From: Aquabacterium sp.
GTDB lineage: Bacteria; Pseudomonadota; Gammaproteobacteria; Burkholderiales; Burkholderiaceae_C
Direction of reading: 5' to 3'
Length of the DNA stretch: 59,017 nt
Assembly (NCBI RefSeq): GCF_021768455.1
Contig: NZ_JAIZVX010000004.1
Span: 1-59,017 of the forward strand
Both the position numbers and the translations under genes were made by a program. How positions within the stretch are numbered: the stretch's first letter is position 1; each line of letters begins with the position of its first letter. The notes below the pieces were generated by a model, which did not search any database, was not told the DNA's origin, and saw nothing but the letters and a program-made list of their open reading frames with translations. This document shows positions 24,521 through 50,600 of this stretch, piece after piece.

Positions 24521-24525
24521 GCGGC

Positions 24526-27939: not shown

Positions 27940-27976
27940 GGACAGATCTCCTGTGTTCACAATGCGCACCTGTTGT

Positions 27977-29271: not shown

Positions 29272-29379
29272 CTCGTCCACCTCGACCACTCACATCCGTG
29301 CTGGCCGAAGGCAGACCATCTGCCAAGCCGTTCAACACAAGGGCGGACTCTATCGACCGGCCCCTATGCGAAGAACGAA

Positions 29380-30873: not shown

Positions 30874-30890
30874 GCAGTGCTCCTGTCGCT

Positions 30891-32126
30891 TCATTGAGAT
30901 TTGGTTTTGCCCGCTGGCGAAGGCTCGGGAGGCGCGGCTCGCGCAGCCACCTTTTCGCCATCAAGGATGGTGTCGTAAGGGTTGAGCACCACCACGTCCT
31001 TGGGGCCAATGCCGGAAAGCACCTCCACGGCACGCCCCATGTCGCGCCCCAGCTTCACGGGCTTCAGGACGACCGTGCCGCCCTCCTCCACCACGGCCAC
31101 ACGAGGTCCGTCCTGACGGAACTGCAGGGTGTTGGGCGGCAGCGTCAGCACACGGTTTGCGCCGCTCAAAGGCAGGCTCACCTCCACATAGGCACCGGGA
31201 ATGAGCTTGCCGTCCTGGTTGGGCAAGGCCACCTCCACCAGCACCGACCGTGTCGAGACGTCGATGCCCCCTGCCACACGGGTCACTTCGCCCTTCAAAG
31301 GCAGATTGGGTTTCTCCAGCAACCTGACACCCACCTCCTTGCCCACCGACACATCGGCGGCATAAGCCTGGGGCACGGCCACGGTCAGGCGCAAGGCGTC
31401 CGTCTGCGCCAGGTAAAAGAGCTCTTTGGTGGTGCTGGCGCTGCCCGAGGCAACCAGGGCCCCCACTTCCACGTTGCGGCGCACGACCACACCGTCAAAA
31501 GGGGCCGTGATGCGGCCAAAGTCGTGCAACTGCTGCAGGCGACGCACATTGGCCTGGGCAGCCGCGAGATCGGCCTGCGCCTGCTGTCGGGCCGCGCGGC
31601 GCTCCTCCAGTTCCTGGGCCGAGACGGCATCGCGCTCGCGCAGGTTTTCCCAGCGGGCCAGCGACGACGTGGTCAGCGCCAGGCGGGCCTTCACCTGCTC
31701 GAGCGTGGCCTGTGCCTGGGCCAGTTCCTGGTCGATCTCGGGCGTGTCAATCAAGGCCAGCACGTCGCCACGCTTGACCTTGTCCCCAATGTCCTTCTTC
31801 CACGCCCTGACATAGCCGTTGGTGCGCGCGTGGATGGCCGCCTCGTTTTCCCCTCGCAGCGTGGCGGGCAAGGCCACCGTGCGCAGCCCCTGGCCAGACT
31901 TGGCCTGTGTGGTGAGCACCGTGCGCACCGCTTGTTGCTCGGTGGCGCGGGCCACCGAAGCCGCGTGCACAGCGTTCACATAAGCCCGCGCCCCCGCACC
32001 GCCCAGAAGGAGCAACACGGTCAGCACGCCAATCTGGCGGGCCCGTCGCACGGATGGCCGACCGGTGGGCAAGGCTGCCGCATGCGGCGCCGTATCGGGG
32101 TGTTCTGGCGGAGAGAAAGACGACAT
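30891..32126 (-). CDS. RND efflux periplasmic adaptor (membrane fusion protein)
   Basis: A 411-residue HlyD/AcrA-family protein linking an RND pump to an outer-membrane channel. It has an N-terminal anchor (RQIGVLTVLLLLGGAGARAY), a lipoyl-like half (NGYVRAWKKDIGDKVKRGDV), a long coiled-coil hairpin (about 125-200, rich in AQATLEQVKARL-type heptads) and the beta-barrel region ITAPFDGVVVRR. No outer-membrane factor gene is adjacent. Start ATG 32126; a TTG at 32141 is the alternative. Confidence 0.9.
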   Translation of the reverse strand: MSSFSPPEHPDTAPHAAALPTGRPSVRRARQIGVLTVLLLLGGAGARAYVNAVHAASVARATEQQAVRTVLTTQAKSGQGLRTVALPATLRGENEAAIHARTNGYVRAWKKDIGDKVKRGDVLALIDTPEIDQELAQAQATLEQVKARLALTTSSLARWENLRERDAVSAQELEERRAARQQAQADLAAAQANVRRLQQLHDFGRITAPFDGVVVRRNVEVGALVASGSASTTKELFYLAQTDALRLTVAVPQAYAADVSVGKEVGVRLLEKPNLPLKGEVTRVAGGIDVSTRSVLVEVALPNQDGKLIPGAYVEVSLPLSGANRVLTLPPNTLQFRQDGPRVAVVEEGGTVVLKPVKLGRDMGRAVEVLSGIGPKDVVVLNPYDTILDGEKVAARAAPPEPSPAGKTKSQ

Positions 32127-32147
32127 GGTGGGGTACGACAAAAGGAA

Positions 32148-35100
32148 TCAGGCCTGCGAAGGCAACAAGTGGGAGGCGCCTGCAACGGGACCGGTGTGGT
32201 CTGGCGCCGTCGGCAGGGAATGACCGCCTCTCGCACGGCGGTGGGCTGCGGCAAACACCAATGGCACGAACACCAGGGTGGACACGGTGGCGAACAACAA
32301 GCCGCCGATCACGGCTCGGCCCAGCGGCGCGTTCTGTTCGCCGCCCTCCCCCAGCCCCAGGGCCATGGGCACCATGCCGATGACCATGGCCAAGGCCGTC
32401 ATCAGCACCGGTCGCAGACGGGTGGAGCCAGCCTCAAGCGCCGCCGTGATCGCGGGCACGCCCTGGGCCAGTCGCTGCCGGGCAAACGACACCACGAGGA
32501 TGCTGTTGGCCGTCGCCACGCCCACGGTCATGATCGCGCCCGTGAGTGCGGGCACGGAAAGCGGCGTGCCGCTGAGGTAGAGCATCCACGCGATGCCGGC
32601 CAATGCAGCAGGCAGTGCCGTCACGATCACCAAGGCGTCCAGCCAGGACTGGAAATTCACCACGATGAGCAGGTACACCAGCACCACAGCCAGAAGCAGC
32701 CCCCAACTGAGCGAGACGAACGAGGTACGCAGGGTCTCGATCTGGCCTCTCACCGTGATCTCGGAGCCACGCGGCAGCTTGGCGCGCACCTGCTCGATGT
32801 GCCGCTCGATGTCGGCGTAGGTGCTGGCCAGATCACGTCCATCCACATTGGTCAGGATGTCGATGACAGGCGCGATGTTGTAGTGCGACACGACGCCTGC
32901 CTGGCTGGTCGACTTCACCTGCACCACATTGCCCAACAACTGAGGCTCGCGCCCCTGCCCCGCGCCACCGCTGGCATTGACGGGGATGCTGAGCATGGCG
33001 CCCAGCGAGTCGATCTCGTACTGGGGTGTCTGCACCGCCACGTTGTAGACGTTGCCGTTGGCTGGATTCAACCAGTAGGTGGGCGCCGTCTGGAAGCTGG
33101 AGCTGAGGGACACCATCATGTTCTGCGCCACGTCGCGCGCCACGAGCCCAGTCTGCAGGAGGCTGGAGCGGTCCATCTCCAGCTGCAGGGTGCGACGGTT
33201 GAAGCGCTGGTAAACGGTGGCATCGGCCACACCCGGGACCTGCCGCACCAATCCGATCAGTTCGCTGGCCACGGCCAGGTTCTCCTCGGTCTTGGGACCC
33301 TGGATCTGGATGTCGATGGGCGCGCTCAGACCAAAGTTCAGTGTCTGGCTGACCATGTCGGCCGGCTGGAAGTAGAACTCGTTGCCGGGAAACGCTCGCG
33401 GCAGATCGGCCCGCAAGGCACGGATGTGCTGGGCGGTGGGTCGATGCCCTTCGGACAGCGACACGAGGATCTCCACGTCGCTGCTGTCGGTCGTGCCGTT
33501 GTTGTTGTAGAGGGTGTTGTAAGGCGTGTAAGGCCCGCCCACGATGTCGACGATGCTGGCCACCTCGTTGCGCCCCACCACCTCACGAATGCGGGCTTCG
33601 ACCTTGTCGACGAAGGCAGGCATTTCGTCAAGACGGGTGCCCAATGGGGCACGCACGTGCAGGCGCATCTGACCTGCGTCCACCGTGGGGAAGAAGTCCT
33701 GCCCCAGCAGCGGGAACAGCCCGAGGGACAGCAAGCAAAAGCCCAGGATGCATCCACCCGCGGCACGCTTGCGTTGCAGGAGCGCCGCCAGCACGCCGGT
33801 GTAGCCGTGTCGCACACGCTCAAACCACGCGTCGAACGCGAGGTGAATGCGGCGCAGGCGCCCCGGCGCACGGGCCGCGGCCTCCCGCTGGCTGTGATGT
33901 CGCATCAGGTACATCACGAGGGTCGGCACCAGCGTGCGAGACAGCGCATAGGACGCCAGCATCGCAAACACCACGGCCATCGCCAGCGGCTTGAACAGCT
34001 GTCCCGCCACGCCGGTGAGGAAAAACATGGGCACGAAGGCAATGCAGATGCACAAGGTGGCCACCAGGGCCGGTGTGGCGATTTCGGCTGCGCCATCGAG
34101 GATGGCCTGGTGGGCGTTCTTGCCCATGTGCAGGTGACGCTCGACGTTTTCGATCTCCACCGTGGCGTCGTCCACCAGGATGCCGACGGCCAGGGCGAGC
34201 CCACCCAGCGTCATGATGTTGATCGTCTGCCCCAACAGGTGGAGGATGATCAGCGATGACAGGATCGAGAGCGGGATGGACACCACAACGATGGCCGTGC
34301 TGCGCCAGTTGCCCAGAAAGAGCAACAGCAGGGCGGCCGTGAGCCCCGCCGCGATCAGGGCCTCGTGCACCACCGACTTGATCGCTGCCGACACGAACAC
34401 AGACTGATCGGCCAATTGCGAGACCGTGATGTCCTCAGGAAGGGCCAGCACGGCCTTGGGCAGTTCTTTGCGGATGGTGTCGATGATGTCCATGGTGGAA
34501 GCGCCACCGTTCTTCAACACCGTCATCAGGAGCCCGCGCTCGCCATCTCGGCGCACGATGTTGGTCTGGGGCTGGTAGCCATCGCGCACCTGAGCGACGT
34601 CGCGCACATAGACGGTCGCGCCATTGACCGTGGTGATGGGAATGTCGCCCAGCCCGGCCATCGTGGCGGGTGAGCCATTGAGGGCCACGCTGACCTCCTG
34701 CCCACCAATGCGGGCGCTCCCCGTGGGGAGCGTCAGGTTCTGCGCACTCAGGGCATTGACCACATCGACCGCAGTGAGCCCTCTGGCGGCCAGGGCAGGC
34801 CCATTGATGTCCACCGAGACCTGCCGGAAGCGCCCGCCGTAGGGCGCCGTCACAGCCACGCCAGGGATGGTGACAAGCTTGGTGCGCAAGACGTTGAAGG
34901 CCTGCTCGTTGATCTCTTGCTCGCTGCGGACCGGGCTGCTGAAACCCAGTTGCAGGATGGGCAGGTTGGTGGCGCTGTACTTGACAATGGTCGGCGGGGT
35001 GGCGCCCGCAGGCAGAGACCGCAGTGACGCCTGGGTGCTGGCCACGACCTGCGCGATGGCTGCAGCCTGGTCCACCTGCGGCTGAAAGAACACCTTGATC

Positions 35101-35372
35101 ACACCCAGACCGCTCATGGTCTGGGACTCGGTGTGTTCCATGTCGCTCACCGAGTTGGCCAGGTTTCGCTCGATGGGCGTGATGATCCGGTCGGTCATCT
35201 CCTTGGCGGTGAGCCCGTTGTAACTCATCAGGATGGCCACAACGGGGATGTCGACTTCCGGAAAGACGTCAACCGGCGTCTTGCGCAGCACAAAGGGTGT
35301 CGCCAGCAGGATCAGCAGCGCCGCGACGATGAAGGTATACGGTCGTCGCAAAGCGACTTGAACAATCCACAT
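32148..35372 (-). CDS. RND family efflux pump, inner-membrane transporter
   Basis: A 1074-residue proton-driven exporter of the HAE/AcrB superfamily: VQVALRRPYTFIVAALLILL at the N-terminus, the TM4 aspartate pair in AVGILVDDATVEIENVERHL, and the second half repeating the layout (TGAIMTVGVATANSILVV). It is of the simpler multidrug/unknown-substrate branch, not a heavy-metal CusA. It lies between the lectin-like gene (30-base gap) and its adaptor. Confidence 0.93.
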   Translation of the reverse strand: MWIVQVALRRPYTFIVAALLILLATPFVLRKTPVDVFPEVDIPVVAILMSYNGLTAKEMTDRIITPIERNLANSVSDMEHTESQTMSGLGVIKVFFQPQVDQAAAIAQVVASTQASLRSLPAGATPPTIVKYSATNLPILQLGFSSPVRSEQEINEQAFNVLRTKLVTIPGVAVTAPYGGRFRQVSVDINGPALAARGLTAVDVVNALSAQNLTLPTGSARIGGQEVSVALNGSPATMAGLGDIPITTVNGATVYVRDVAQVRDGYQPQTNIVRRDGERGLLMTVLKNGGASTMDIIDTIRKELPKAVLALPEDITVSQLADQSVFVSAAIKSVVHEALIAAGLTAALLLLFLGNWRSTAIVVVSIPLSILSSLIILHLLGQTINIMTLGGLALAVGILVDDATVEIENVERHLHMGKNAHQAILDGAAEIATPALVATLCICIAFVPMFFLTGVAGQLFKPLAMAVVFAMLASYALSRTLVPTLVMYLMRHHSQREAAARAPGRLRRIHLAFDAWFERVRHGYTGVLAALLQRKRAAGGCILGFCLLSLGLFPLLGQDFFPTVDAGQMRLHVRAPLGTRLDEMPAFVDKVEARIREVVGRNEVASIVDIVGGPYTPYNTLYNNNGTTDSSDVEILVSLSEGHRPTAQHIRALRADLPRAFPGNEFYFQPADMVSQTLNFGLSAPIDIQIQGPKTEENLAVASELIGLVRQVPGVADATVYQRFNRRTLQLEMDRSSLLQTGLVARDVAQNMMVSLSSSFQTAPTYWLNPANGNVYNVAVQTPQYEIDSLGAMLSIPVNASGGAGQGREPQLLGNVVQVKSTSQAGVVSHYNIAPVIDILTNVDGRDLASTYADIERHIEQVRAKLPRGSEITVRGQIETLRTSFVSLSWGLLLAVVLVYLLIVVNFQSWLDALVIVTALPAALAGIAWMLYLSGTPLSVPALTGAIMTVGVATANSILVVSFARQRLAQGVPAITAALEAGSTRLRPVLMTALAMVIGMVPMALGLGEGGEQNAPLGRAVIGGLLFATVSTLVFVPLVFAAAHRRARGGHSLPTAPDHTGPVAGASHLLPSQA

Positions 35373-35402: not shown

Positions 35403-36104
35403 TCAGTTGATGGCGAAGCAGTACAGCAGGCCCGCACCACCGGTGGCCACGAGGTTGGCCTGGCCACACCCACGGCTGCCATGGGTAGAGTTCCAGGAGG
35501 TGTTGCCGCCGCCGGTCCTGTCGAAGTGACCGACCTGGGCCGAGCCCTCGGCGGCGCTGCTCGTGTAGTTCTGGCAGGTGTGATCCGCCGCGTCGGTGTA
35601 GGCCCGGCCATCGGGCGTGGAGCCGGTGAGGATGTCGTGCTCGTTGGGCTGATCGCCTGCGCGCTTGATGGGCTCGTTCTTTTCGGTGAAGGCGGTTGCC
35701 CAGCTCAGGTTGTTGCCCAGACGAGCCAGTTCCAGCGTGTCACCATGCAGGTGAGCCAGGTCGCGTGCCACCACGGCGCCACGGGTGTTGTACCAGGGGC
35801 CCTGGCCGATGCGATCACGCGCGTTGACCGCCGGCTGGCCATCCTTGGCCTGGGTGCTCAAGTAGGCACGCCAGGTCTTGGCGCCACCGCCGGCCGCGGC
35901 AGCCAGGGTTTGGCAGTGCTGGTCTGCGCCGGCCAGACCACCATAGTCGGCACCCTTGCCTCCGCCTACGCTGGTCACGAAAAAGCTGAAGGGCTGCTTG
36001 GGGGCCTGGGCGGCCGGTGCGGTTTGCGCCTGTGCGGCCGAAGCCGCCCACAGCATCGCCGCAGCCAACCAGCTCAGCTGGCCTTGGAAACGGTATGGGC
36101 GCAT
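35403..36104 (-). CDS. Exported lectin-like (C-type lectin/endostatin-fold type) protein
   Basis: A 233-residue protein with a signal peptide (about 1-27, ending SAAQAQ). The mature part starts FSFFVTSVGGGKGADYGGL, then GADQHCQTLAAAAGG...WRAYLST, the pattern of bacterial endostatin/C-type-lectin-fold proteins. Four cysteines (two pairs) could form disulfides, one pair near the C-terminus (HGSRGCGQ...LLYCFAI). It might bind a carbohydrate or surface ligand; this is inference. It starts three bases after the cytochrome c' stop and precedes the RND pump. Confidence 0.65.
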   Translation of the reverse strand: MRPYRFQGQLSWLAAAMLWAASAAQAQTAPAAQAPKQPFSFFVTSVGGGKGADYGGLAGADQHCQTLAAAAGGGAKTWRAYLSTQAKDGQPAVNARDRIGQGPWYNTRGAVVARDLAHLHGDTLELARLGNNLSWATAFTEKNEPIKRAGDQPNEHDILTGSTPDGRAYTDAADHTCQNYTSSAAEGSAQVGHFDRTGGGNTSWNSTHGSRGCGQANLVATGGAGLLYCFAIN

Positions 36105-36107
36105 GGC

Positions 36108-36587
36108 TCAGTCCTTGGCCTTGTAGTCGTCGTGGCAGGCCTTGCAGGTGCGCTGCAGCTTGCCCAGTTGGGCCTTCACCGCAGCCACGTCGCCGCCCTG
36201 CGCCAGCTTGGCCAGCTCGGTGGCTTCCTTGCTGAAGTTGCCAGCCAACTCACCCACCTTGGCTCCATCCTTGAACAGTTCGGGCTTGGCCGCGGTGTCG
36301 TGCCAGCCTTTGCCGGTTTCCGTGCCCGCGGCGAACAGCGCACCCAGCCCCGAATTGGCGATGGCAGCAATGGCGTTGGCCGCCTTGATCACGTCGTCCT
36401 TGTTGTAGGTACCGTCGACGTTGGCCTTGACGCGACCGGTGTTCCAGGCGACCAGCTGGTACGCCGATTGACGCCACTTGATCAGTTGCTCAGGCTTGGG
36501 CGCCTGTTGGGCCATGGCGGTGGCTGCAGCCGCGAGCGCGCCAATGGCGAGCACCGTGGCGGCGATGGGTTTCAGACGCTTGTTCAT
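36108..36587 (-). CDS. Cytochrome c' / c-556 type protein
   Basis: A 159-residue periplasmic four-helix-bundle cytochrome. It has a signal peptide (MNKRLKPIAATVLAIGALAAAATAMA), helical body with LIKWRQSAYQLVAWNTGRVK, and a heme site at the extreme C-terminus: C148-K-A-C151-H152. Cytochromes c' bind small gases or transfer single electrons. It begins a short operon with the lectin-like protein and RND pump and depends on the Ccm system encoded downstream. Confidence 0.9.
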   Translation of the reverse strand: MNKRLKPIAATVLAIGALAAAATAMAQQAPKPEQLIKWRQSAYQLVAWNTGRVKANVDGTYNKDDVIKAANAIAAIANSGLGALFAAGTETGKGWHDTAAKPELFKDGAKVGELAGNFSKEATELAKLAQGGDVAAVKAQLGKLQRTCKACHDDYKAKD

Positions 36588-36614: not shown

Positions 36615-36638
36615 AAAAACCCGGGCAAAAAGCCCGGG
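36615..36638 (-). terminator. Rho-independent terminator
   Basis: CCCGGGC and GCCCGGG with a five-base loop, followed by five T on the minus strand. It ends the transcript that includes the dienelactone hydrolase gene and separates it from the cytochrome c' operon. Confidence 0.85.
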
Positions 36639-36664
36639 CGTGAGTGGGAAATCGAAAATCGTGC

Positions 36665-37555
36665 TCAGGCGCTCAGGTTCTGGCGGAAGAACGCCACCGT
36701 GCGTTCCCAGGCCAGCTTGGCCGCCGCCGCGTCGTACCGCGGGGTGGTGTCGTTGTGGAAGCCGTGCTGCACCCCGGGGTAGACATGGGCCTCGTATCGC
36801 ACGCCAGCCTTTTTGAGTGCCGCTTCATACTTGGGCCAGCCTGCATTGATGCGTTCGTCCACGCCGGCGTACTGCAACAGCAGCGGGGCCTTGATGCGGG
36901 CCGCCTCTTCCTCACTGGGCTGACCGCCATAAAACGGAACGGCCGCAGCAAGGTCGGGCAACCGTGTGGCCAAATGATTGGCAATCCCGCCGCCATAACA
37001 AAAGCCCACCACGCCCACGCGCCCATTGCCCTCAGGCGCGACTTTCAAAAACTCGGCCGCTGCGACGAAGTCGGCGCGGGCCTTGGTCTGATCGAGCTTG
37101 GGGAAGAGTTCGCGGGCCTTGTCTTCATCGCCTGGGTAGCCACCCAGCGGGTACAAGGCATCGGGCGCAAAGGCCACGAAGCCATCCAGGGCCAGACGGC
37201 GAGCGACGTCTTCGATGTGCGGGTTGAGGCCCCGGTTCTCGTGCACCACCAGCACGGTGGGCAACTTACCCTTGGCACCTGCAGGCGATACCAGGTAGCC
37301 ACGCACCTTGCCGTAACCCTGAGGCGAGGCGATCTCGATGTAGCGGGCGTTCAGGCGGCCATCGTCAGGCTTGACCTGCTGAGCCTGCGCAAAATTCGGG
37401 CTGAGTTCGGCCAGCAAGGCTTCCGCGGTCACTGCGCCCACGGTGTACTTCGATGCCGCGCTCAAAAAGCCGCGACGGCCCAGCAGGCCATGCACATACT
37501 GGTCGAAGAGCTTCAGCACTTCGGGCGAAAAATCTTGGGCGGTCTTGCGTGTCAT
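36665..37555 (-). CDS. Exported dienelactone hydrolase family protein
   Basis: A 296-residue alpha/beta hydrolase. The catalytic triad can be placed at C186 (GVVGFCYGGG), D233 (GVDERINAG) and H264 (GVQHGFHND). The N-terminus is longer than cytosolic DLHs: a helical stretch, then GRRGFLSAASKYTVGAVTAEA, a probable twin-arginine signal with the RR pair at 27-28. Activity on a lactone or ester in the periplasm is likely, substrate unknown. ATG at 37555 has AAAGGAG ahead. It is embedded among cytochrome genes, 20 bases after cytochrome c4. Confidence 0.85.
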   Translation of the reverse strand: MTRKTAQDFSPEVLKLFDQYVHGLLGRRGFLSAASKYTVGAVTAEALLAELSPNFAQAQQVKPDDGRLNARYIEIASPQGYGKVRGYLVSPAGAKGKLPTVLVVHENRGLNPHIEDVARRLALDGFVAFAPDALYPLGGYPGDEDKARELFPKLDQTKARADFVAAAEFLKVAPEGNGRVGVVGFCYGGGIANHLATRLPDLAAAVPFYGGQPSEEEAARIKAPLLLQYAGVDERINAGWPKYEAALKKAGVRYEAHVYPGVQHGFHNDTTPRYDAAAAKLAWERTVAFFRQNLSA

Positions 37556-37575
37556 GTCGTGCTCCTTTGGATGGC

Positions 37576-38268
37576 TCACAGGCCAGATACATAGTCGGCC
37601 AGCGCCTGCAACTCGTCGTCGGTGAGGTTTTTCATCACCTGGTTCATCACGCCGCCTGGGCTGTTGCGCCGGTCACCACTGCGCCAATCGCGCAACTGTT
37701 TGTCGAGGTAGCGCCACTCCTGCCCGCCAATCACCGGACTGATCACGCCGCCTTGCAGCCCCCCCTGACCTTTGTCGCCATGGCAAGAGGCACATGCCAT
37801 CACCCCGCGCGCGGGGTCGCCCTGCTGGTACAGCTGCCGCCCTACGGGCTTGTCGCCCGTGCCATCGCCTTGCATCGGGCGCTGGCTGGCGAAGTACGCC
37901 ACGATGTCGACCAGGTCCGCATCCTCCAGATGCCGGGCCACGACGGTCATCACATCGTGCTTGCGTTCACCGCTCTGGAAGTTGCGAATCTGCTTGATCA
38001 GGTATTCGGGGTGCTGCCCGCCCAGCTTGGCAAACTTGCCTTCGGGGCCGTTGCTGTGGCCCGCGCCATGCCCATCGACGCCATGGCATTCCTGGCAGCG
38101 TTCGTCGTTGGACTTGGCCATCCCCAGCACCGGGTCTCCCTTGGGCAAAACGGCGGGTGCCTGCGAAACCACCTTGCCCTGCCCCTTGCTCTTGGCGGTT
38201 GGCGGTGCAGCGATGGCAGGCGCCACGATCAAGCCCCATGCCAGCAGACCACACAACCCGCTTTTCAT
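37576..38268 (-). CDS. Diheme cytochrome c4
   Basis: A 230-residue periplasmic electron carrier with two cytochrome c domains. Heme sites are C58-Q-E-C61-H62 and C159-A-S-C162-H163. The two halves share the IVAYFASQRP / LADYVSGL pattern of class I cytochromes. Signal peptide MKSGLCGLLAWGLIVAPAIA; ATG at 38268 gives this start. It probably hands electrons from the periplasmic enzymes of this cluster to a terminal oxidase. Confidence 0.92.
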   Translation of the reverse strand: MKSGLCGLLAWGLIVAPAIAAPPTAKSKGQGKVVSQAPAVLPKGDPVLGMAKSNDERCQECHGVDGHGAGHSNGPEGKFAKLGGQHPEYLIKQIRNFQSGERKHDVMTVVARHLEDADLVDIVAYFASQRPMQGDGTGDKPVGRQLYQQGDPARGVMACASCHGDKGQGGLQGGVISPVIGGQEWRYLDKQLRDWRSGDRRNSPGGVMNQVMKNLTDDELQALADYVSGL

Positions 38269-38332
38269 ACCCTGCACAGACACAGAGCGCGGCCCGCGCG
38301 CCCAGGTTTCAAACTGCATGCGCCACCCTGGT

Positions 38333-38926
38333 TCAGCGACGCGACGACGCCAGTTTCTGCACGGCTTTCAGCGCCTTCTCCACGTTCGCTGCCGGCGTCA
38401 GCCCACCAACCGTGGCGGCCACCTTGCCATCGGGCGTCACGACAAAGGTCGTGCGCTCGGCGAAGCCATGGTCGATGTCTGCACCACGGGTGTCCTTGCG
38501 GCCGGCCACCGCGTCCCGGATGGCCAGGTCGTAGGCCTTGGCGATCTTGCCGTCGGCATCGGAGGCAACGGCGATCTTGCCTGCGCAGAACTGCGGATCG
38601 GCCGAGAACTCGTTGAGGCGGGCAATGTTGTCCAACGAGACGCCCACAATGCTGGCACCTGCGCTCTTGAACTTGTCGACATCTTCGGCAAACGTGTGGG
38701 CCTGCACATTGCAGCCGTTGGTGAACGCAGATGGGTAGAAATAGACCACCACCGGGCCCTTCTTGAGGGCGTCCTTCAGGCTGTACTGGAAGGCCTTGCC
38801 TGCCAGCGAGGCCTGGGTGCTGAAGTCAGGGGCTTTGTCGCCATCCTTGAGGGCGGCCAAGGCCGGCGCGGCCACCAGGCCCAGGGCGAGGGCCGCAGTG
38901 GCCAGCTGAGTCGCGGAGAAGGTCAT
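38333..38926 (-). CDS. Exported peroxiredoxin (AhpC/TSA, BCP-like)
   Basis: A 197-residue thioredoxin-fold peroxidase with a signal peptide (MTFSATQLATAALALGLVAAPALA). The active-site segment VVYFYPSAFTNGCNVQAHTF places the peroxidatic cysteine at C72; a second cysteine (DPQFCAGKIAVASD, about 107) could resolve it. A typical second-position motif is TPGC, here TNGC. It could detoxify peroxide made by periplasmic redox enzymes. It is nine bases from the adjacent cytochrome gene. Confidence 0.88.
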   Translation of the reverse strand: MTFSATQLATAALALGLVAAPALAALKDGDKAPDFSTQASLAGKAFQYSLKDALKKGPVVVYFYPSAFTNGCNVQAHTFAEDVDKFKSAGASIVGVSLDNIARLNEFSADPQFCAGKIAVASDADGKIAKAYDLAIRDAVAGRKDTRGADIDHGFAERTTFVVTPDGKVAATVGGLTPAANVEKALKAVQKLASSRR

Positions 38927-38935
38927 CGTGTGCTT

Positions 38936-39331
38936 TCAGGATTTCTTATAGAAGTTGTGGCAGGTCTTGCATGCGCGAGACAGGTCGGTCGCGGTGTTGG
39001 TTGCCTTGTCGAAGGCCTTGGCGTCGACCTGCCTGATGATCTCGGCGGACAGGTTCTTGCTCTTGCGGGCCAGTTCCACCGCGTCGACCGCATCGGACTT
39101 GTGCACGTAGAAGGTCTCGACCTGGCTGAACATCTCGTTCAGCTCTTTCGCGTCCGAGGTCGCACCCATGGCGTTCTGGGTCGCGATGTTGGAAGCCAGG
39201 CTCTTGTTGGTGTCCTCGATGGACTGCATGAGGTCGGTGCTGAGTTCCTCTTCGTCAGCCGAATGCACCACCCCGATCAAAAATGTGCCCAACGCCACCG
39301 CAGCGGCCAAGGTCGTCAATGTCCTGCGCAT
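38936..39331 (-). CDS. Small monoheme cytochrome c (C-terminal CxxCH)
   Basis: A 131-residue exported helical protein with signal peptide (MRRTLTTLAAAVALGTFLIGVVHS) and a C-terminal heme site C121-K-T-C124-H125. The layout matches the cytochrome c'/c-556 group, like the protein at 36108-36587. ATG at 39331 is preceded by a purine-rich GAGAGAG. It follows the DUF1501 gene by 78 bases. Confidence 0.85.
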   Translation of the reverse strand: MRRTLTTLAAAVALGTFLIGVVHSADEEELSTDLMQSIEDTNKSLASNIATQNAMGATSDAKELNEMFSQVETFYVHKSDAVDAVELARKSKNLSAEIIRQVDAKAFDKATNTATDLSRACKTCHNFYKKS

Positions 39332-39409
39332 CTCTCTCTCATCTCTTGCTTGGCTGGGGTGCCACCTGGCCGGGACCATGGCCCGACCAGGTGATCACCA
39401 GGGGCCGTG

Positions 39410-40864
39410 TCAGGCCAGGATGTCCTTGATGACCTTGCCGTACACCACGGTCGGACGCTCCGAGCGGCCGTTGTGGATGAAGGTCGTCTTCAGGTGGTCC
39501 AGTCCCATCAGGTGCAGCACGGTGGCGTGCAGGTCGTAGGTGTCCACGGCCTTGTCCTTGTCGGCCACCTGCAGGCCGATGTCGTCGGTCTCTCCATAGG
39601 TGAAGCCGGCCTTCAGGCCGCCGCCAGCCAGCCACTGGGTGTAGCCCCAGGGGTTGTGGTCTCGGCCACTGCCGCTTTCGCCCCAGGATGTACGCGAGAA
39701 CTCCGAGGTCCAGACCACCAGGGTCGTATCGAGCAGGCCGCGCTCTTTCAGGTCGTGCAGCAGGCCGGCAATCGGTTTGTCCACCATGCGGGCCATGACG
39801 GCGTGGTTCTGGTCCAGCTCGCTGTGAGCGTCCCAGCTCTGACGGTCGATGTCGGCCCCCTCAGGGAAGCCCGAGACCACCTGCACGAATCGCACACCGC
39901 GCTCCACCAGGCGGCGGGCGCGCAGCAGCACCTCGCCATAGCTCTGGCTGGTCTTGTCGTTCAGACCATAAAGCTCCTTGGTGGCAGCGCTTTCCTTGGT
40001 GATGTCCACGGCAGCCGGCGCCGCGGTCTGCATGCGATCGGCCAGTTCGTAGGACTGCAGGCGGGCGCGCAGTTCGGTGTCGGCAGGGTACTGCTCGGCG
40101 CCGAGCAGGTTCAGGCGCTTGAGCAGGTCGAGCGACTTGCGCTGTTGCTGGGCGTCACGCACCTCGGGACGGGTCAGGTAGAGGATGGGGTTGTCGCCAG
40201 GACGGAAGGCCGTGCCCTGGTAGACCGCAGGCAGGAAGCCCGACGCCCAGTTGACCGATCCCGCAGAAGGCTCACGGTCACCGTTGTAGAGCACCACATA
40301 AGGCGGCAGATCGGGGTTGGCCGAACCCAAGGCATAGGTGATCCAGGCACCCAACGAAGGACGACCCGGGTTCAGGTCACCCGTGTTGAGCTTCAGAATC
40401 GAGATGTCGTGGGTGGCGCCCACGGTGGTGCTCGACTTGATGAAGGTCAGCTTGTCGGCCTGCTTGGCCAGGTTGGGCAGCAGGTTGGAGAACCAGGCAC
40501 CGCTCTCGCCGTACTGCTTCCAGGTGCGCTGGTTGGAGGCGAACAGCTTGCCGACACCACCCTGCGTGCTGGTTTTGATGCCCTTGAGGAAAGAGGCCGG
40601 CACCGTCTGGCCTGCCAGCTTTTCCAGCGTGGGCTTGTAGTCGTAGAGGTCCAGCGTCGAGGGCGCGCCGTTCTGGTGCAACCAGATCACCGACTTGATC
40701 TTGCCGGGGAACTGAGAGGCCTTGGGGGCCAGCGGATCGGCCAGTTCGGCCGCGGTGGCGGCACTGACATGGCCGATGCCGGGAATGAAGCCACCCAGGG
40801 TGGCACCGCCCAGGCCCAGGCCGGCGTTGCGAAGGAAAGCACGGCGTTGATCGTTGCTCATCAT
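39410..40864 (-). CDS. DUF1501 protein, Tat-exported
   Basis: A 484-residue protein of the DUF1501 family, remotely related to the alkaline phosphatase/sulfatase superfamily. The N-terminus has a twin-arginine signal (QRRAFLRNAGLGLGGATLGG). Recognisable parts are VIWLHQNGAPSTLDLYDYKP, RGVRFVQVVSGF, TLVVWTSEFSRTSWG and DHNPWGYTQWLAGGG, the last two holding the likely metal ligands. The family is abundant in planctomycetes, where it sits beside DUF1549/DUF1553 genes, as here. The reaction is unknown. Confidence 0.85.
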   Translation of the reverse strand: MMSNDQRRAFLRNAGLGLGGATLGGFIPGIGHVSAATAAELADPLAPKASQFPGKIKSVIWLHQNGAPSTLDLYDYKPTLEKLAGQTVPASFLKGIKTSTQGGVGKLFASNQRTWKQYGESGAWFSNLLPNLAKQADKLTFIKSSTTVGATHDISILKLNTGDLNPGRPSLGAWITYALGSANPDLPPYVVLYNGDREPSAGSVNWASGFLPAVYQGTAFRPGDNPILYLTRPEVRDAQQQRKSLDLLKRLNLLGAEQYPADTELRARLQSYELADRMQTAAPAAVDITKESAATKELYGLNDKTSQSYGEVLLRARRLVERGVRFVQVVSGFPEGADIDRQSWDAHSELDQNHAVMARMVDKPIAGLLHDLKERGLLDTTLVVWTSEFSRTSWGESGSGRDHNPWGYTQWLAGGGLKAGFTYGETDDIGLQVADKDKAVDTYDLHATVLHLMGLDHLKTTFIHNGRSERPTVVYGKVIKDILA

Positions 40865-40901
40865 GTGTCCTTGTCTTGTTTGTGAGAGGGAATGGAGGGA
40901 C

Positions 40902-43247
40902 TCAGAAGCGGTAGGCAAAGCTGTTGGAGTTCGCGACGGTGTGGACCAGGTCCACAAAGGCAGCGGACTTCACCGGGTCGTAGGACTTGGTGTCTTTCAG
41001 ACCAGCAGGCACGGCCACCTCGAACTTGCCGCCGGCAGCCTTCTGGCGGATGGCGATCTGCTCATCGGCGAGGAACTGCTTGAGGGCTGTGCGCTCTGCC
41101 TTGCTAGGCTGGCGGGCAAACAGGATCTCGTAGACGCGGTTGAGTTGGGCGTCTTCGCTCGGGCCGGCTTCGTTGATCACGCGACCAGCCAGGGCCTGGC
41201 TCCAATCGAACACGATCTCGCTGTTGAACAGGGTCAGCGCCTGCAGCGGCGTGGTGGTCACGTCACGCTTGTGGTGCGGGTTGTTCGGGTTGGCGGGGTC
41301 GAAGTTCTGTGTGATCGGATACGGGAAGCTGCGGCGGGTGAACACGTAGAGGCTGCGGCGGTACCAGTCTTCCTTCTCCTCAGAGACCGTCCAGGCGCGG
41401 TTGCCGGCAAAATCCTGCGACTTGCCCACGTCACCGCTCTTCAACACAGGCGGGAAGACCGAAGGCCCCCCCACCTTGTCAACCAGCAGGCCCGATGCGT
41501 ACAACAGCGAGTCGCGGATCACCTCGGCTTCCAGGCGCTTGCGCGGGTAGACCGCCAGCAGCTTGTTTTCCGGGTCCACCTTGACCGCATCCGGGCGCTC
41601 GTCCGAGGACTGGCGGTAGGTCGCAGACAGCAGGATGTCGCGGTGCAGCTTCTTGACACTCCAGCCGTTGCCGACAAAGTCGGATGCCAGGTGATCCAGC
41701 AGTTCAGGATGGGTCGGCTTCTGCCCGGCACGGCCGAAGTCGGCAACGGTGGCGATGATGCCCTTGTCGAAGTACTGCGCCCAGACGCGGTTCACGTAGA
41801 CGCGGGCGGTCAGCGGGTTGTCATTGCTGCTCAGCCATTGGGCCAGGGCTGAACGGCGGCCGGACGACTTCTCGGTCGGCGTGATCGCCACCTCACCCTT
41901 GCCACCCCACAACGCCGGGATGGCAGGCTTGACGGCCTCCAGCGGACGCTCGTGGATGCCACCAAAGCGCACATGGGTGGGCGGCACATCGGTGGAGGTC
42001 AGCTCCAGCGCGGTGGTGGCCCAGTTGCTGCCCTTGGCCGGCTTGAGCTTGTCGAACTGCTTGATCTCTTCCTGCAGGGCCTTGTACTGCTTCCAAAGGT
42101 CGACATGGGCCTCGTTGTAGTCGGGGCGTGTCTTTTCCTCGGCGGTGTCACGCAGGTAGCTGACGATCTCGTTGTCGGTGGCCACCGCCTGCTTGCGCCA
42201 GTTCACCCATTTGTCAAGCGCGTTCCATTCCGACTCTGGCTTGAAGATGGCGGCACGGCTGTCATCGAGGTAACGCTCGTTGTAGTACTTGCGGCCGGCC
42301 TCACGAACCTTGTCCAGGATGGCCTTCTGCTTGGCCCGGATCTCTTTCGTGGCCTCGTTGTAGACGGCTTGTTGCTTCTGGTAGGCCTTGTCGAAATCGG
42401 TCTCGCTGCCCTTGTCCAAAGGCGCCTTCTCGTTGAAAGCCGTGTTCGCAAAGAAGGACTGCAGCTGGAAGTATTCCTTCTGACTGACCTTGTCGGCCTT
42501 GTGGTTGTGGCAACGTGCGCAACCGACGGTGGCCGCCAGGAAGGTCTCCCCCACCAGGTCGGTCATGTCGGTCTCGATCTGGTACTTGCGCTGCACCAGG
42601 TCACGCGAGTTGAAGTTGTCGGGGTAGCCCGCCAGGAAGCCCGTCGCAATGCGGGCGTTCTGGTCGGCCGGCCAGAGTTCGTCACCAGCGACCTGCTCCT
42701 GGATGAAACGGCTGAACGGCTTGTCGCTGTTGAAGGCGTTGATCACGTAGTCGCGATAGCGCCAGTTGTTGGGGCGGGTGTTGTCGTTCTGGAAGCCCGT
42801 GCTGTCGGCATAGCGAGCCAGGTCCAGCCAGCGGCGCGCCTGACGCTCGCCAAAGTGATGAGAGGCCAGCAGGCGGTCAACCAGCTTCTCGTAGGCCTGC
42901 GGCGATTTGTCGTTGACGAAGGCCTTGATCTCTTCCGGCGTCGGCAGCAAGCCCCAGGCATCCAGCGTGGCGCGGCGGATGAACGTGGCGCGATCGGCCT
43001 CGGCCGAAGGCTTCAGACCGTTGGCCTCCAGCTGCGCCAGCACGAAGGCGTCGATCGGTGAGCGCACCCAGCCCTTTTGCTTGACGGCAGGCACCGCCGG
43101 ATCCTTCACGGGCTGGTAGGGAGACCAGGCCTTGGTCGATGCCGTCTGAGCGGCTTTGGCCACCTGGGCCACGGCCACGGTTTCAGCCGTCACACCCTGC
43201 AGGGCGAAAGAGCCAAGAAGAATCGAGATATAGATGGACTTTTTCAT
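40902..43247 (-). CDS. DUF1549/DUF1553 protein with embedded CxxCH (planctomycete type)
   Basis: A 781-residue exported protein. Signal peptide at 1-22 (MKKSIYISILLGSFALQG), DUF1549 with DAWGLLPTPEEIKAFVND and ARYADSTGFQND, then VGCARCHNHKADKVSQ giving C243-A-R-C246-H247, a probable heme c site. The C-terminal DUF1553 part has SSNDNPLTARVYVNRVWAQYF, RDILLSATYRQSS and RRSFPYPITQNFDP. In planctomycetes such proteins may be large cytochromes. It is the first gene of the minus-strand run; ATG at 43247 gives the signal peptide. Confidence 0.88.
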   Translation of the reverse strand: MKKSIYISILLGSFALQGVTAETVAVAQVAKAAQTASTKAWSPYQPVKDPAVPAVKQKGWVRSPIDAFVLAQLEANGLKPSAEADRATFIRRATLDAWGLLPTPEEIKAFVNDKSPQAYEKLVDRLLASHHFGERQARRWLDLARYADSTGFQNDNTRPNNWRYRDYVINAFNSDKPFSRFIQEQVAGDELWPADQNARIATGFLAGYPDNFNSRDLVQRKYQIETDMTDLVGETFLAATVGCARCHNHKADKVSQKEYFQLQSFFANTAFNEKAPLDKGSETDFDKAYQKQQAVYNEATKEIRAKQKAILDKVREAGRKYYNERYLDDSRAAIFKPESEWNALDKWVNWRKQAVATDNEIVSYLRDTAEEKTRPDYNEAHVDLWKQYKALQEEIKQFDKLKPAKGSNWATTALELTSTDVPPTHVRFGGIHERPLEAVKPAIPALWGGKGEVAITPTEKSSGRRSALAQWLSSNDNPLTARVYVNRVWAQYFDKGIIATVADFGRAGQKPTHPELLDHLASDFVGNGWSVKKLHRDILLSATYRQSSDERPDAVKVDPENKLLAVYPRKRLEAEVIRDSLLYASGLLVDKVGGPSVFPPVLKSGDVGKSQDFAGNRAWTVSEEKEDWYRRSLYVFTRRSFPYPITQNFDPANPNNPHHKRDVTTTPLQALTLFNSEIVFDWSQALAGRVINEAGPSEDAQLNRVYEILFARQPSKAERTALKQFLADEQIAIRQKAAGGKFEVAVPAGLKDTKSYDPVKSAAFVDLVHTVANSNSFAYRF

Positions 43248-43412
43248 TTCATTATCCCAGTACATAAGGCGCTCAGCGCATTTGCTCACTCTGTTTCCGA
43301 GAATGCAGGCCAATCTCAAAATGACCCCACCCAACACCACTTGAATCAAAGCAAACCGTCAAGCAGGCAAGACACACAGGCCCCTCCAGCTCAAGCAAGT
43401 GCCTCTATTAGC

Positions 43413-43444
43413 AATTGGCGCGCCACACAAGACAAGCGCCAATT
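43413..43444. promoter_or_regulatory. Inverted repeat, candidate enhancer site
   Basis: AATTGGCGC and GCGCCAATT, nine bases each, 14 bases apart, about 195 bases upstream of the -24/-12 promoter. The distance suits a bacterial enhancer-binding protein; the binding protein is not identified. Confidence 0.45.
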
Positions 43445-43529: not shown

Positions 43530-43636
43530 GCAGCAAAACAAGAGCGCATTGCTCAGATCTCAACAGCAAGGTGTTTGATTCTCAACACCCGCAGATCAAA
43601 ACGCCCTGAATCAATCCAATAAACCAGCAATAACTC

Positions 43637-43652
43637 AGGCACGGTAACTGCT
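43637..43652 (+). promoter_or_regulatory. Sigma-54 promoter of the porin-importer operon
   Basis: AGGCACGGTAACTGCT matches TGGCACG-N4-TTGC closely, with GG and GC ten bases apart. A start near 43663 leaves a 42-base leader before the GTG at 43705. The presence of an SfnR-like sigma-54 activator in the same cluster supports it. Confidence 0.65.
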
Positions 43653-43704
43653 ATGAATGGAGCCACGTGAAAACAAAACGTCCTCTTCATCAGGAGTATT
43701 GATA

Positions 43705-45312
43705 GTGCACCCGTTCAAAATAACAACGCTGACCGCCGCCGCGCTGATCTCCCTCGGTTCCGGCCACGTCCTGGCGGCACAACCGAGCAGCAAGGAAGTC
43801 CAGAGCCTCAAGGGCACGGTGGAAGATCTGCGCAAGCAGTTGCAGTCCCTCCGCAGCCAACAAAGCAGCAACACCTCGGCGCTGGAAAAGGCCCAGGTCG
43901 ACGAACTGCGCAAGCAACTGGAAGAGCTGCGCGCTTTCGTGAAGAAGCAGCCGGCTGAACAGCCCACCGCCTCGGTGACCACCACCGAGGGCGCCGAGGG
44001 TGAAAGCCAGGAGTCCATCGACGCCCGCACCGCGGCCTCCAAGGCCGACATCCAGGGCCTGCGCACCGACCTCGAGAACTACAAGTACGACCAATCGCGC
44101 CTGCAGGAACGCACCATTCCCAGCGTGACCCGCAACACCAAGATCGGCGGCACCGTCACGGTGGGCTATGAGACCCGCAATCCAGCCTTCAAGGCCGGTG
44201 ATTCCCAGACCACCGCAGCCACCAACTCGGCCCCTGCCGAGCCCCGCAGCAGCGGCTTCCGGGCTCCCACAGCCACACTGAACCTCGCTGGCAACCTCTA
44301 TCGCGACTACGGCGAAGGCCGCAACCTGACTTACCGTCTGGCGCTGAACGTGGGCACCACCGGTACCAACGCCACGGCCAACTCGCAGGTCAACCTGACC
44401 GATGCCTGGGTGCGCTACAGCTACGAGCCCTCCACCGGCAACCTGGAAGACCGCCAAGGCACCATCACCCTGGGTCAGCAGGCCGTGCCTTTCGGCCTCG
44501 ATGCCCCTGCGCTGGACCCCGAAGTGCGAGCCGTGATCAACAGCGCCTTGTTCGTTTCAGGACTGGACGTTGGCACACGCCAAGTGGGTGTGCTGGTTCA
44601 GGGCGACTACGACCCTTACGTCGACTTCACGAACAACTACCGAGCCCCCCTGTTGGGCTACTCGCTGGGCTTCTTCAACGGCAATGGTCCGAACAAGAAC
44701 GACAACAACAACGCACGCGACTGGATCGCCCGCCTCGCACTGACGCTGCCCGTGGACTACACCAGCTGGCTGCGCCAACTCCAGATCGGTGCCACCTACT
44801 ACAAGCGCAGCCCGACGATCGCGCCGAATGGTGCAACGACCACGACCACTGGCTACAAGGGTGAGAACAACATCACCGGCTTCGACGTGAACTGGACGCA
44901 CCTGCCCTACTCCATCTCTTACGAATGGGCACGTGGCAAGCAAGAACTCTCACCGACCACAGCCAACCTGGCGACCAATACCGATGGCTTTAAACGCGGC
45001 CTGGGCCAATACATCAACTTTGGCTACACCTTCGGCGAGCAGTTCCTCAACAGCTCGAAGCAACAAGGCAAGTTCGACGACTACTGGCCCACGTCCTTCC
45101 AGGCCTTCGTGCGCATCGACACCTTCGACCCCAACCTGTCCAGCAAGGTCGTCAACGACAAGCAATACCGCAACACCTTTGGCCTGAACGTGTTCTTCGC
45201 TGAGACCACCCGCTTCCAGATCAACTATTTCAAAGACCGCAACCAGGCCAACACCGCCGACCTGCCCAAGCGCGCCAATGGCCTGCAGGCCCAGTTCGTC
45301 GCTGGCTTCTGA
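43705..45312 (+). CDS. Outer-membrane porin with N-terminal coiled coil
   Basis: A 535-residue outer-membrane protein. After the signal peptide (residues 1-24) comes a coiled coil of about 70 residues (EVQSLKGTVEDLRKQLQSLR..., DELRKQLEELRAFVKK). The beta-barrel runs from about residue 130 with many aromatic-ending strands, and the C-terminus ends in phenylalanine (QAQFVAGF). It resembles OprO/OprP-like and SphX-like porins used for anionic solutes. GTG at 43705 is chosen: AGGAG lies eight bases before it, and the sigma-54 start maps between it and an earlier ATG (43657). First gene of the operon. Confidence 0.85.
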   Translation: MHPFKITTLTAAALISLGSGHVLAAQPSSKEVQSLKGTVEDLRKQLQSLRSQQSSNTSALEKAQVDELRKQLEELRAFVKKQPAEQPTASVTTTEGAEGESQESIDARTAASKADIQGLRTDLENYKYDQSRLQERTIPSVTRNTKIGGTVTVGYETRNPAFKAGDSQTTAATNSAPAEPRSSGFRAPTATLNLAGNLYRDYGEGRNLTYRLALNVGTTGTNATANSQVNLTDAWVRYSYEPSTGNLEDRQGTITLGQQAVPFGLDAPALDPEVRAVINSALFVSGLDVGTRQVGVLVQGDYDPYVDFTNNYRAPLLGYSLGFFNGNGPNKNDNNNARDWIARLALTLPVDYTSWLRQLQIGATYYKRSPTIAPNGATTTTTGYKGENNITGFDVNWTHLPYSISYEWARGKQELSPTTANLATNTDGFKRGLGQYINFGYTFGEQFLNSSKQQGKFDDYWPTSFQAFVRIDTFDPNLSSKVVNDKQYRNTFGLNVFFAETTRFQINYFKDRNQANTADLPKRANGLQAQFVAGF

Positions 45313-45351: not shown

Positions 45352-46449
45352 ATGAAACGCCGCTCATTCAACTCCGCCCTCCTCGCTGGCCTGGGCACCC
45401 CCGCCCTGATTGGCCTGTCCTCGGGTACCGCCCGAGCCGCTGACGCTGCCAAGCCCACCACCATCCGCATCGGCTTCCCCGGTGCCGGCACCGGTGGTCG
45501 CCCCCTGCCCACTTCAGGATTCACCGCCAACACCGTGTTCCTGGGTGAGCTGGAAAAGGAGTTCAAGGCCGACAACATCAAGATCGAGTGGAAGTACTAC
45601 GTGGGCGCGGGTCCGGCTCTGAACGAGGCCTTCGCCAACGGCCTGCTGGACTTCTGCTTTGGCCACGGCGACCTGCCCCTGATCGTGGGCCGCTCCACCG
45701 GCCTCAAGCACAAGATCTTGCTGTCGTCGGGTCGCGGTGGCGACGTCTACCTGCTGACCCCCGCCGCTTCCGCCGCCAAGGAAGTCGCCGATCTGAAGGG
45801 CAAGACCCTGTCGGTGCAAAAGGGCACGGCGGGTCAGCTCACCTTGTACCGCTTCCTGGCCAAGCACGGTTTCAACGAGCCGGAGAAGGAATTCCGCATC
45901 ATCAGCCAGATTACTGACGACCGCCGCGCCTCGCTGGCCACTGGCGACATCGCTGGCGCCATCGACACCCCCTGGGGCCTGGAAGCCCGTGGCGTGACCA
46001 AGCGGATCGCCGAAGTGCACGACGACCCGAACATCAACACCCCGGGCACGGTCTGGGTGGGTGAAGCCTTCGAACAGCAGTACCCCGACATCGTTCAGCG
46101 CATCGTCACGCGCGTGGTGAAGGTGGCGCACTGGAGCACGCAGGAAGCCAACCGCGAGACCCAGTACCAGTACTGGACCCGCTCGGGCTCCAACGCCTAC
46201 ATCGACAACAAGAAGGAATGGGACCGCGTCAAGGACCTGCGCGTTCGCCACAACCCCTTGCTGGACGACTTCTACAAGGCGCAGATCAAGAAGGCCATTG
46301 CCGAGACCAAGAAGTACCGCCTCACCCGCCGTGACTTCGACTTCGACAGCTGGATCGAGCCCAAGTACCTGAACAAGGCCCTGGCCGATCTGAAGCTGGA
46401 GACCTACTGGCCGACCCAGGGCGCCGACGGCAAGTTCACGCGCACCTGA
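45352..46449 (+). CDS. ABC transporter substrate-binding protein, SsuA/NitT/TauT-like
   Basis: A 365-residue periplasmic receptor. The signal (MKRRSFNSALLAGLGTPALIG) has a twin-arginine look. The mature part follows the SsuA-type pattern: EWKYYVGAGPALNEAFANG, DFCFGHGDLPLIVGRSTG, LKGKTLSVQKGTAGQL and LATGDIAGAIDTPWGLE. It would bind an aliphatic sulfonate or similar anion. AAGGAG stands before the ATG. The exact ligand cannot be read. Confidence 0.88.
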   Translation: MKRRSFNSALLAGLGTPALIGLSSGTARAADAAKPTTIRIGFPGAGTGGRPLPTSGFTANTVFLGELEKEFKADNIKIEWKYYVGAGPALNEAFANGLLDFCFGHGDLPLIVGRSTGLKHKILLSSGRGGDVYLLTPAASAAKEVADLKGKTLSVQKGTAGQLTLYRFLAKHGFNEPEKEFRIISQITDDRRASLATGDIAGAIDTPWGLEARGVTKRIAEVHDDPNINTPGTVWVGEAFEQQYPDIVQRIVTRVVKVAHWSTQEANRETQYQYWTRSGSNAYIDNKKEWDRVKDLRVRHNPLLDDFYKAQIKKAIAETKKYRLTRRDFDFDSWIEPKYLNKALADLKLETYWPTQGADGKFTRT

Positions 46450-50530: not shown

Positions 50531-50600
50531 AGGTTTTTTTCATTCGTTCCGCGTTGATGCACTGAAAACCAGAATGCCTTCATCGCTTCACAACCCCCGC

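Follow-up and report, generated by a model that had tools for sequence, protein, structure and literature searches.

A 59,017-nucleotide stretch of DNA from a freshwater Aquabacterium sp. (contig NZ_JAIZVX010000004.1), referred to here as the window, carries a conserved island of approximately 19.9-53.1 kb whose core is a train of genes led by a DUF1549-DUF1553 heme protein and a DUF1501 protein. These three families, DUF1549, DUF1553 and DUF1501, are a hallmark of planctomycetes and have no known function. The gene set and the control signals of the island are well supported and, judged from sequence, the island is very probably under sulfur-starvation regulation. On balance, we interpret it as a sulfur-scavenging island that would be controlled by an SfnR-family activator and sigma-54 and would have a periplasmic heme enzyme at its core. 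The further proposal that the DUF1549-DUF1501 pair itself releases sulfur falls just short of an even chance, and the coupling of that release to heme oxidation is put forward more tentatively. We infer the catalysis, the organosulfur nature of the substrate and the direction of electron flow from the arguments given below.

The core genes lie on the minus strand, separated by fewer than 80 bases, and Pfam and NCBIfam scans confirmed the positions, common strand and names given in the first-pass annotation of this DNA. The DUF1549(PSCyt2)-DUF1553(PSD1) protein (40902..43247; 781 residues) is present as a single copy in the genome and matched both families above the Pfam cut-offs (2.4e-81, 273 bits, and 1.4e-93, 313 bits, respectively). 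It is followed by the cysteine-free DUF1501 protein (39410..40861; 6.6e-130, 434 bits, above cut-off), by a small cytochrome c (38936..39331) that had no Pfam match and carries a CKTCH heme motif (CxxCH at 121, near the C-terminus), by an exported peroxiredoxin (38333..38926; AhpC-TSA, 1.5e-27) with a PxxxTxxC motif, and by a diheme cytochrome c4-like protein (37576..38268; Cytochrom_C, 3e-17) with CxxCH at 58 and 159. The last gene of the train encodes an accessory dienelactone hydrolase (DLH)/YghX-like protein (36665..37579; DLH, 6.1e-52), for which the nearest NCBIfam model, YghX, scored 431 bits, below its cut-off of 460. An all-periplasmic train had been proposed, and export signals, judged by eye, were indeed seen on all six proteins: Sec-type on DUF1549, the small cytochrome, the peroxiredoxin and c4, and Tat-type RRxFL on DUF1501 and the DLH protein. 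The terminator said to close the train was located as an intrinsic terminator-like hairpin (36619..36639, minus strand; eight pairs, seven of them GC), although such sites are not enriched overall (7 found compared to 8.7 expected in shuffles). Past the hairpin, on the same strand and outside the span first annotated, lie the genes for a cytochrome c' (36108..36587), identified by Pfam scan and conservation, and a conserved secreted protein (35403..36104) that is weakly like DUF1554 and endostatin-type domains, below both cut-offs.

The single CxxCH of the DUF1549 protein lies exactly where it was first placed (C243, C246 and H247) and is present in all 28 aligned sequences and in all 8 of a wider alignment. 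The protein does not have the N-terminal PSCyt1-like heme domain, with its extra CxxCH, that is found in all five of the longer relatives aligned. Separately encoded small cytochromes may do the job of this missing domain.

To find related loci, a collection of one genome per species (84,980 species) was scanned with patterns from the DUF1549 protein. The scan yielded 31 loci, 62-87% identical, in records that name Beta-, Gamma- and Alphaproteobacteria, and several of these loci are cut by contig ends. DUF1501, the peroxiredoxin and c4 were found in all 31 loci, the small cytochrome in 30, cytochrome c' in 25 and the secreted protein in 23. With the gene set repeated across all 31 related loci, chance clustering was set aside. 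Other genes occur in fewer loci: rhodanese (21 loci), cytochrome b561 (19), DLH (14), porin (14), SsuA with ATP-binding cassette (ABC) partners (13), an SMP-30 lactonase-like protein (13), a TonB receptor family (10), and the activator described below (16, in addition to the window). In the Magnetospirillum locus (L032), c4 lies upstream of the DUF1549-DUF1501 pair. The DUF1549 gene of that locus (9932-12287 of a metagenome-assembled genome) is split over two frames, possibly by decay or sequencing error. In another locus (L016, 20755-22236), a tannase/feruloyl esterase gene adjoins the cytochrome c' end of the module. The distribution of the module is patchy. The DUF1549 protein was found in 18 of 41 congeners and in 24 of 149 genomes in all, one of which (G769) was counted by a fragment only. 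PSCyt2 occurred in 4 of 300 genomes of the order and a true DUF1501 orthologue in 2 of 398 genomes of the phylum, this genome being included in both counts; 18 more genomes of the phylum gave weak partial DUF1501 matches.

The gene at 51813..53099 (minus strand) encodes an SfnR-family sigma-54 activator; an open reading frame on the opposite strand (51696-53132, plus) was rejected as its shadow. The SfnR family serves organosulfur scavenging through the msu/sfn genes and is used when sulfur runs short. The best plasmid relatives of the activator include a P. aeruginosa protein encoded next to msuE-msuD (54.8% over 89%) and a B. pyrrocinia protein encoded next to sfnG-SfnB-msuE (50.9% over 93%). 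The unannotated loci of two further relatives, from Variovorax and B. arboris, encode MsuE and SfnG nearby, together with MsuD in Variovorax. Of the 28 activators placed in a tree, the 17 from the module and 5 from four msu/sfn loci formed one group with support of 100/98, and six other activators of this genome fell apart from it. Only this large split was used, because those six have long branches. By both relatives and tree, the module activator thus groups with SfnR. The second activator of locus L069, which from gene order we take to be the SfnR2 of an msu locus, is placed accordingly in the tree, and its assignment as a type VI secretion system regulator was rejected on both grounds. At a threshold of E at most 1e-80, an SfnR-like activator was present in 18 of 18 congeners with the module compared to 2 of 23 without it, and it lay within 9 kb of DUF1549 in 16 of those 18. 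Of the 20 genomes searched behind the 31 loci, 19 carry the activator, scoring at least 332 bits compared to at most 251 for the next class.

Two sigma-54 promoters of the -24/-12 type diverge from the region upstream of DUF1549. One faces the DUF1549 operon (43410..43425, minus strand; TGGCGCGCCAATTGCT, 11 of 12 positions) and the other faces a porin-Ssu operon (43637..43652, plus strand; AGGCACGGTAACTGCT, 10 of 12). Between them, and common to both operons, are two copies of a palindrome, TGYTG-N6-CARCA, each with one mismatch (43550..43565 and 43572..43587, the second 22 bp from the first). In 27 of 29 loci, the 600 bp ahead of DUF1549 contain a sigma-54 site, which in 26 of them is on the operon strand, compared to approximately 5.9 loci in mononucleotide shuffles; this count excludes L019 and L022, whose contigs end just upstream, and L032, with its split DUF1549. 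In the two loci that were missed (L023 and L025), the leading gene is that for rhodanese, and it has a site ahead of it. The palindrome was found upstream of the sigma-54 site, usually in tandem: it was perfect in 11 of 28 loci, within one mismatch in 21, and present in at least two copies in 17 (L016, L019, L022 and L032 excluded). Markov shuffles gave 0.1% perfect and 4% with up to one mismatch, and random windows gave 0.5% and 7%.

Because the 28 loci also served to find the box, the msu/sfn loci and a set of eight new loci are the fair tests of it. The box was perfect at all five sigma-54 sites that precede msuE or msuD in four msu/sfn loci and absent from the four other sigma-54-like sites in those loci. 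In eight loci outside the discovery set (L089, L091, L092, L098, L099, L100, L104 and L105), the promoter was present in all eight and the box, with up to one mismatch, in seven, compared to 108 of 1600 (6.8%) random windows of the same loci; L090, L093-L097 and L101-L103 were left out as contigs already used. Promoter and box together also preceded porin genes in 12 of the 31 loci and the window, rhodanese genes in 8 and TonB receptor genes in 8. The module promoters therefore share a sigma-54 site and a box with the msu/sfn promoters, the box being one derived here rather than from a published footprint, and it probably belongs to SfnR. Because each window box carries one mismatch, a search of this genome for the strict palindrome gave no exact match, and further members of the regulon did not emerge from it. 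Looser genome-wide promoter patterns, with 25 and 59 matches compared to 3 and 4 in read-backwards controls, were uninformative.

Downstream of the plus-strand promoter, closely spaced on one strand, are genes for uptake and electron transfer. They encode a porin-like outer membrane protein (43657..45312) that had no Pfam match and whose true start is probably near 43700, past the promoter; an SsuA-family substrate-binding protein (45352..46449; 92.8 bits, below the cut-off of 163.5); two sulfonate/nitrate-type ABC permeases (46487-47386 and 47407-48195); an ABC ATPase of the same type (48277..49089); an exported rhodanese-like protein (49128..49619; 20.1 bits, below the Pfam cut-off of 22.2); cytochrome b561 (49644..50495); and the sulfate-binding protein Sbp (50574..51647). 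Near the module in three other loci (L024, 3866-5878, where TonB and ExbB were scanned, L015 and L017), TonB-ExbB-ExbD-type genes stand beside the TonB receptor, suggesting a dedicated energised uptake route where the porin-Ssu operon is not linked.

The minus strand of the island also carries System I cytochrome c maturation genes (22658..29289), encoding CcmA, CcmB, CcmE, CcmF, a CcmG-like protein, CcmH and CcmI/CycH, with CcmC named by position. They are followed end to end by a gene for a formylglycine-generating-enzyme-like protein (21669..22778; PF03781) and one for a type I sulfatase (19892..21829), which has both the PF00884 match and CxPxR. CcmB scored above cut-off in 18 of 18 module congeners compared to 6 of 23 others, and ResB of System II was found in 16 of 18 and 23 of 23, respectively. 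On these counts, System II is the default of the genus and System I goes with the module. In this genome and in 14 of those 18 congeners, a single contig holds CcmB and DUF1549 no more than 16 kb apart. From this linkage and co-occurrence, which bear indirectly on DUF1549 itself, the Ccm genes are predicted to attach the hemes. The sulfatase and its formylglycine-generating-enzyme-like neighbor recur in 3 of 14 genomes with extended flanks, one of these stretches (G713) having been taken on the wrong side, and another sulfatase is present in L017. In the window, the sulfatase has a Tat-type motif and the formylglycine-generating-enzyme-like protein has a signal-like N-terminus of its own; export of the latter together with its likely client is of interest. 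The link to sulfur that had been suggested for the train thus gained strong support, from the SfnR-family activator, the sigma-54 promoters and boxes, the sulfonate-type ABC importer with Sbp, and the sulfatase with its partner.

Several observations weigh against a sulfur-scavenging island of this kind. The scan patterns behind the 31 loci favor close relatives. Promoter and box occurred jointly before DUF1549 in 21 of 32 loci (the 31 and the window), and another 25 pairs, spread over 17 loci, have no labelled gene after them, representing noise or unlabelled targets, so that these signals are not clean one by one. Fisher tests of co-occurrence with the module, 9e-10 for the activator and 7e-7 for CcmB, ignore kinship. 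The activator search scored the best 11 candidates per genome, and absences may therefore be overstated. An SfnR-like activator also occurs without the module in G691, G699, G738, G746, G004 and G032, the last four of which are outside the genus, and the Magnetospirillum locus has neither an SfnR-like activator (best 238 bits) nor a promoter-box pair. CcmB is common outside the genus (above cut-off in 78 of 149 genomes in all), and linkage of Sbp is limited to 8 of the 31 loci. The AlphaFold models made for the two proteins of the pair are poor (predicted local distance difference test scores of 51 and 60; alignments of 28 and 30 rows) and yield no mechanism. Finally, Saccharobesus litoralis carries a minimal version of the module, comprising DUF1549 (55%), DUF1501 (67%), the small cytochrome (37%), c' (25%) and b561 (38%), which is set among pectin genes, next to pectate lyase and GH88 genes, and has neither box nor sigma-54 site ahead of it. 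The pairs of Catenovulum and Haliscomenobacter likewise sit in polysaccharide loci, and the basic chemistry may therefore concern sugars.

These distant pairs also bear on the first-pass annotation, which would have been undermined by pairs scattered without their neighbors. Within the subfamily this is not so, as the peroxiredoxin and c4 accompany the pair in 31 of 31 loci. It is true of the distant Saccharobesus, Catenovulum (two pairs), Haliscomenobacter and Singulisphaera plasmids, where no peroxiredoxin or c4 was annotated in the stretches seen; in Saccharobesus, none of the 14 features compared, of 23 annotated, matched the peroxiredoxin, c4 or rhodanese.

An unlikely explanation, yet the best placed of the alternatives, is periplasmic carbohydrate oxidation, in which the pair would oxidise or deacylate sugars or polysaccharide fragments, the cytochromes would accept the electrons, SMP-30 and DLH proteins would open lactones, and sulfur control would reflect sulfated polysaccharides. 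The surroundings of the distant pairs, which include GH88, pectate lyase, GH43, GH115, GH98, fucP and SusCD genes, are consistent with it, as are the lactonase-like, DLH and TonB receptor genes of the 31 loci. Passages of one study also place Verrucomicrobia PSCyt genes near sulfatases and with carbohydrate-binding modules (PMC5615132). However, the SfnR-type boxes and the sulfonate and sulfate uptake genes argue against this explanation, no glycoside hydrolase was found among the window proteins scanned, and the lactonase-type genes are optional. Lactone opening, which had been proposed as a core step, is weakened by the same counts, since DLH is present in 14 and SMP-30 in 13 of the 31 loci.

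It is less likely still that the module is a protective one, a periplasmic electron-transfer and peroxide-defence system induced in sulfur starvation with no role in freeing sulfur. The peroxiredoxin in every locus, c' in 25 and b561 in 19 would suit such a role, as would a DsbD gene that adjoins rhodanese-b561 in a Massilia locus. According to passages of PMC12581299, P. aeruginosa starved of sulfur induces antioxidants, with SfnG, SfnR1, MsuCDE and a 1-Cys peroxiredoxin among the proteins raised, an observation that also counts in favor of the sulfur-scavenging interpretation. Protection alone, however, would leave the strongly conserved DUF1501 hydrolase without an obvious place, and the promoter-box signals also stand before outer-membrane and ABC importers (12 loci for the porin, 8 for the TonB receptor).

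DUF1501 had been described as a distant sulfatase/phosphatase relative, and its weak AlphaFold model agrees: the 50 fold matches listed were sulfatases, LtaS and other alkaline-phosphatase-superfamily enzymes, so that the protein looks like a member of this superfamily by fold. The DUF1549 model had no PDB fold match at E 0.001, and two viral_contigs scans meant to deepen the alignments found no relatives. Ten DUF1501 sequences that span these bacteria and planctomycetes share invariant residues, among them S143, H151, D344, H346, E387, R400, H402 and D443, as would be expected of a metal hydrolase. These matches, and the sulfatase nearby, raise the possibility that DUF1501 alone cleaves sulfate esters and that the cytochromes are passengers. 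We consider this very unlikely, as DUF1549 is paired with DUF1501 in 31 of 31 loci, CcmB is present in 18 of 18 congeners, and 28 of 30 DUF1501 sequences have no cysteine and thus cannot use formylglycine. A formylglycine sulfatase was set aside on that basis and because neither CxPxR nor a PF00884 match at E 0.001 was found. Sox-like lithotrophic oxidation of inorganic sulfur for energy, to which the rhodanese, the several cytochromes c and the hydrolase-type partner might point, is highly improbable and was set aside, as no Sox family (SoxA, X, B, Y or Z) scored above cut-off among the window proteins scanned, the rest of the genome not having been searched (SoxX reached 23.4 bits, below its cut-off of 61), the regulator family serves assimilation, and the importers are co-regulated.

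We return to the sulfur-scavenging island and the manner in which it might work. When preferred sulfur is gone, the SfnR-type activator would bind the tandem boxes found between the promoters and fire the two divergent sigma-54 operons. An organosulfur compound would enter through the porin or, in other genomes, the TonB receptor, for both of which genes are present. In the periplasm, DUF1501, with its hydrolase fold and no formylglycine, and the DUF1549/DUF1553 protein, with hemes attached by the linked Ccm system, would release sulfite or sulfate. The small cytochrome, c' and c4 would carry electrons away from the DUF1549 heme to a terminal oxidase, or b561 would pass them to quinone, and the exported peroxiredoxin would clear peroxide. 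The sulfur product would then be imported by Sbp or by the SsuABC-type importer, whose genes are present and whose substrates are predicted. At its core, the module most likely converts a substrate by means of the DUF pair, which would be wired to the cytochromes and b561, because the minimal Saccharobesus version comprises DUF1549, DUF1501, the small cytochrome, c' and b561; here that activity would serve sulfur supply. For the conversion step, oxidation with electrons leaving via c4 is favored over hydrolytic or oxygenative alternatives. The heme-linked oxidative attack proposed in the first-pass annotation, with peroxide as a by-product, is unproven. Taken as a whole, the pair would represent a novel kind of enzyme, periplasmic and coupled to cytochromes, that frees organic sulfur, has its own linked System I genes and is called up by SfnR, a proposal that we regard as possible though doubtful.

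Other genes of the window are linked to the module less regularly. Those for an RND pump, a membrane fusion protein and a metallo-beta-lactamase (MBL)-fold protein (29413..35372, minus strand) recur in 9, 9 and 2 of 31 loci, respectively. The MBL-fold protein (29413-30894) is exported and has a long N-terminal half without assignment; L017, L019, L028, L089 and L091 have homologues close to the module. A small open reading frame adjoining the activator (53291-53509, plus strand) presumably encodes a molybdate-binding Mop/TOBE-like domain.

The module had been thought undescribed, and no account of it was among the literature matches listed, a coverage outside which most subscription papers fall; nor was a mutant phenotype for DUF1549, DUF1553 or DUF1501 met in the few passages covered. 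The function of the pair should be easy to test in the laboratory, because it is switched on, apparently, by a sulfur-shortage regulator. A regulator family with a known signal turns that function into a growth question, namely which sulfur source needs these genes. The module is single-copy in relatives that include the culture-collection strains Aquabacterium commune DSM 11901, Derxia gummosa DSM 723 and Massilia kyonggiensis JCM 19189. If the proposal is true, periplasmic sulfur release by heme proteins would differ greatly from the route through flavin monooxygenases in msu/sfn and ssu, and the presence of dozens of such domains in a planctomycete genome, with sulfatases as neighbors, would be explained by the same chemistry.

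Among the closest known systems are the msu/sfn regulons under SfnR in Pseudomonas and Burkholderia, which have in common with the island an SfnR-family activator, sigma-54 promoters and the palindromic box. They use the flavin monooxygenases SfnG, MsuC and MsuD, according to passages of PMC8234197, whereas the island encodes exported heme proteins. None of these three monooxygenases was found among the scanned proteins of the two operons, the rest of the genome not having been searched. Assimilation of dimethyl sulfide is treated in passages of PMC13352529. SsuEADCB and TauABCD are alike in their SsuA-type importer genes, the SsuA-like protein here being below its family cut-off, and neither SsuD nor TauD was found among the module proteins scanned. 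The Sox system of thiosulfate oxidation also combines a periplasmic hydrolase-type protein with heme proteins and a rhodanese; it differs in its Sox families and in regulation, which here is of the assimilatory type. With S1 sulfatases and their formylglycine-generating enzyme, DUF1501 shares, by its weak model, the alkaline-phosphatase-superfamily fold and not the CxPxR motif, and a true S1 sulfatase with such a partner lies in the same window. Also close are the planctomycete pairs of PSCyt2/PSD1 and DUF1501, which have the same two domains in adjacent genes and a conserved CxxCH. Unlike those pairs, the module has no extra N-terminal CxxCH domain and instead has separate genes for the small cytochrome, the peroxiredoxin and c4. 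It is also far sparser, with one DUF1549 copy here compared to 41 copies each of DUF1549 and DUF1553 in Rhodopirellula baltica, for which passages of PMC2754498 suggest a redox function.

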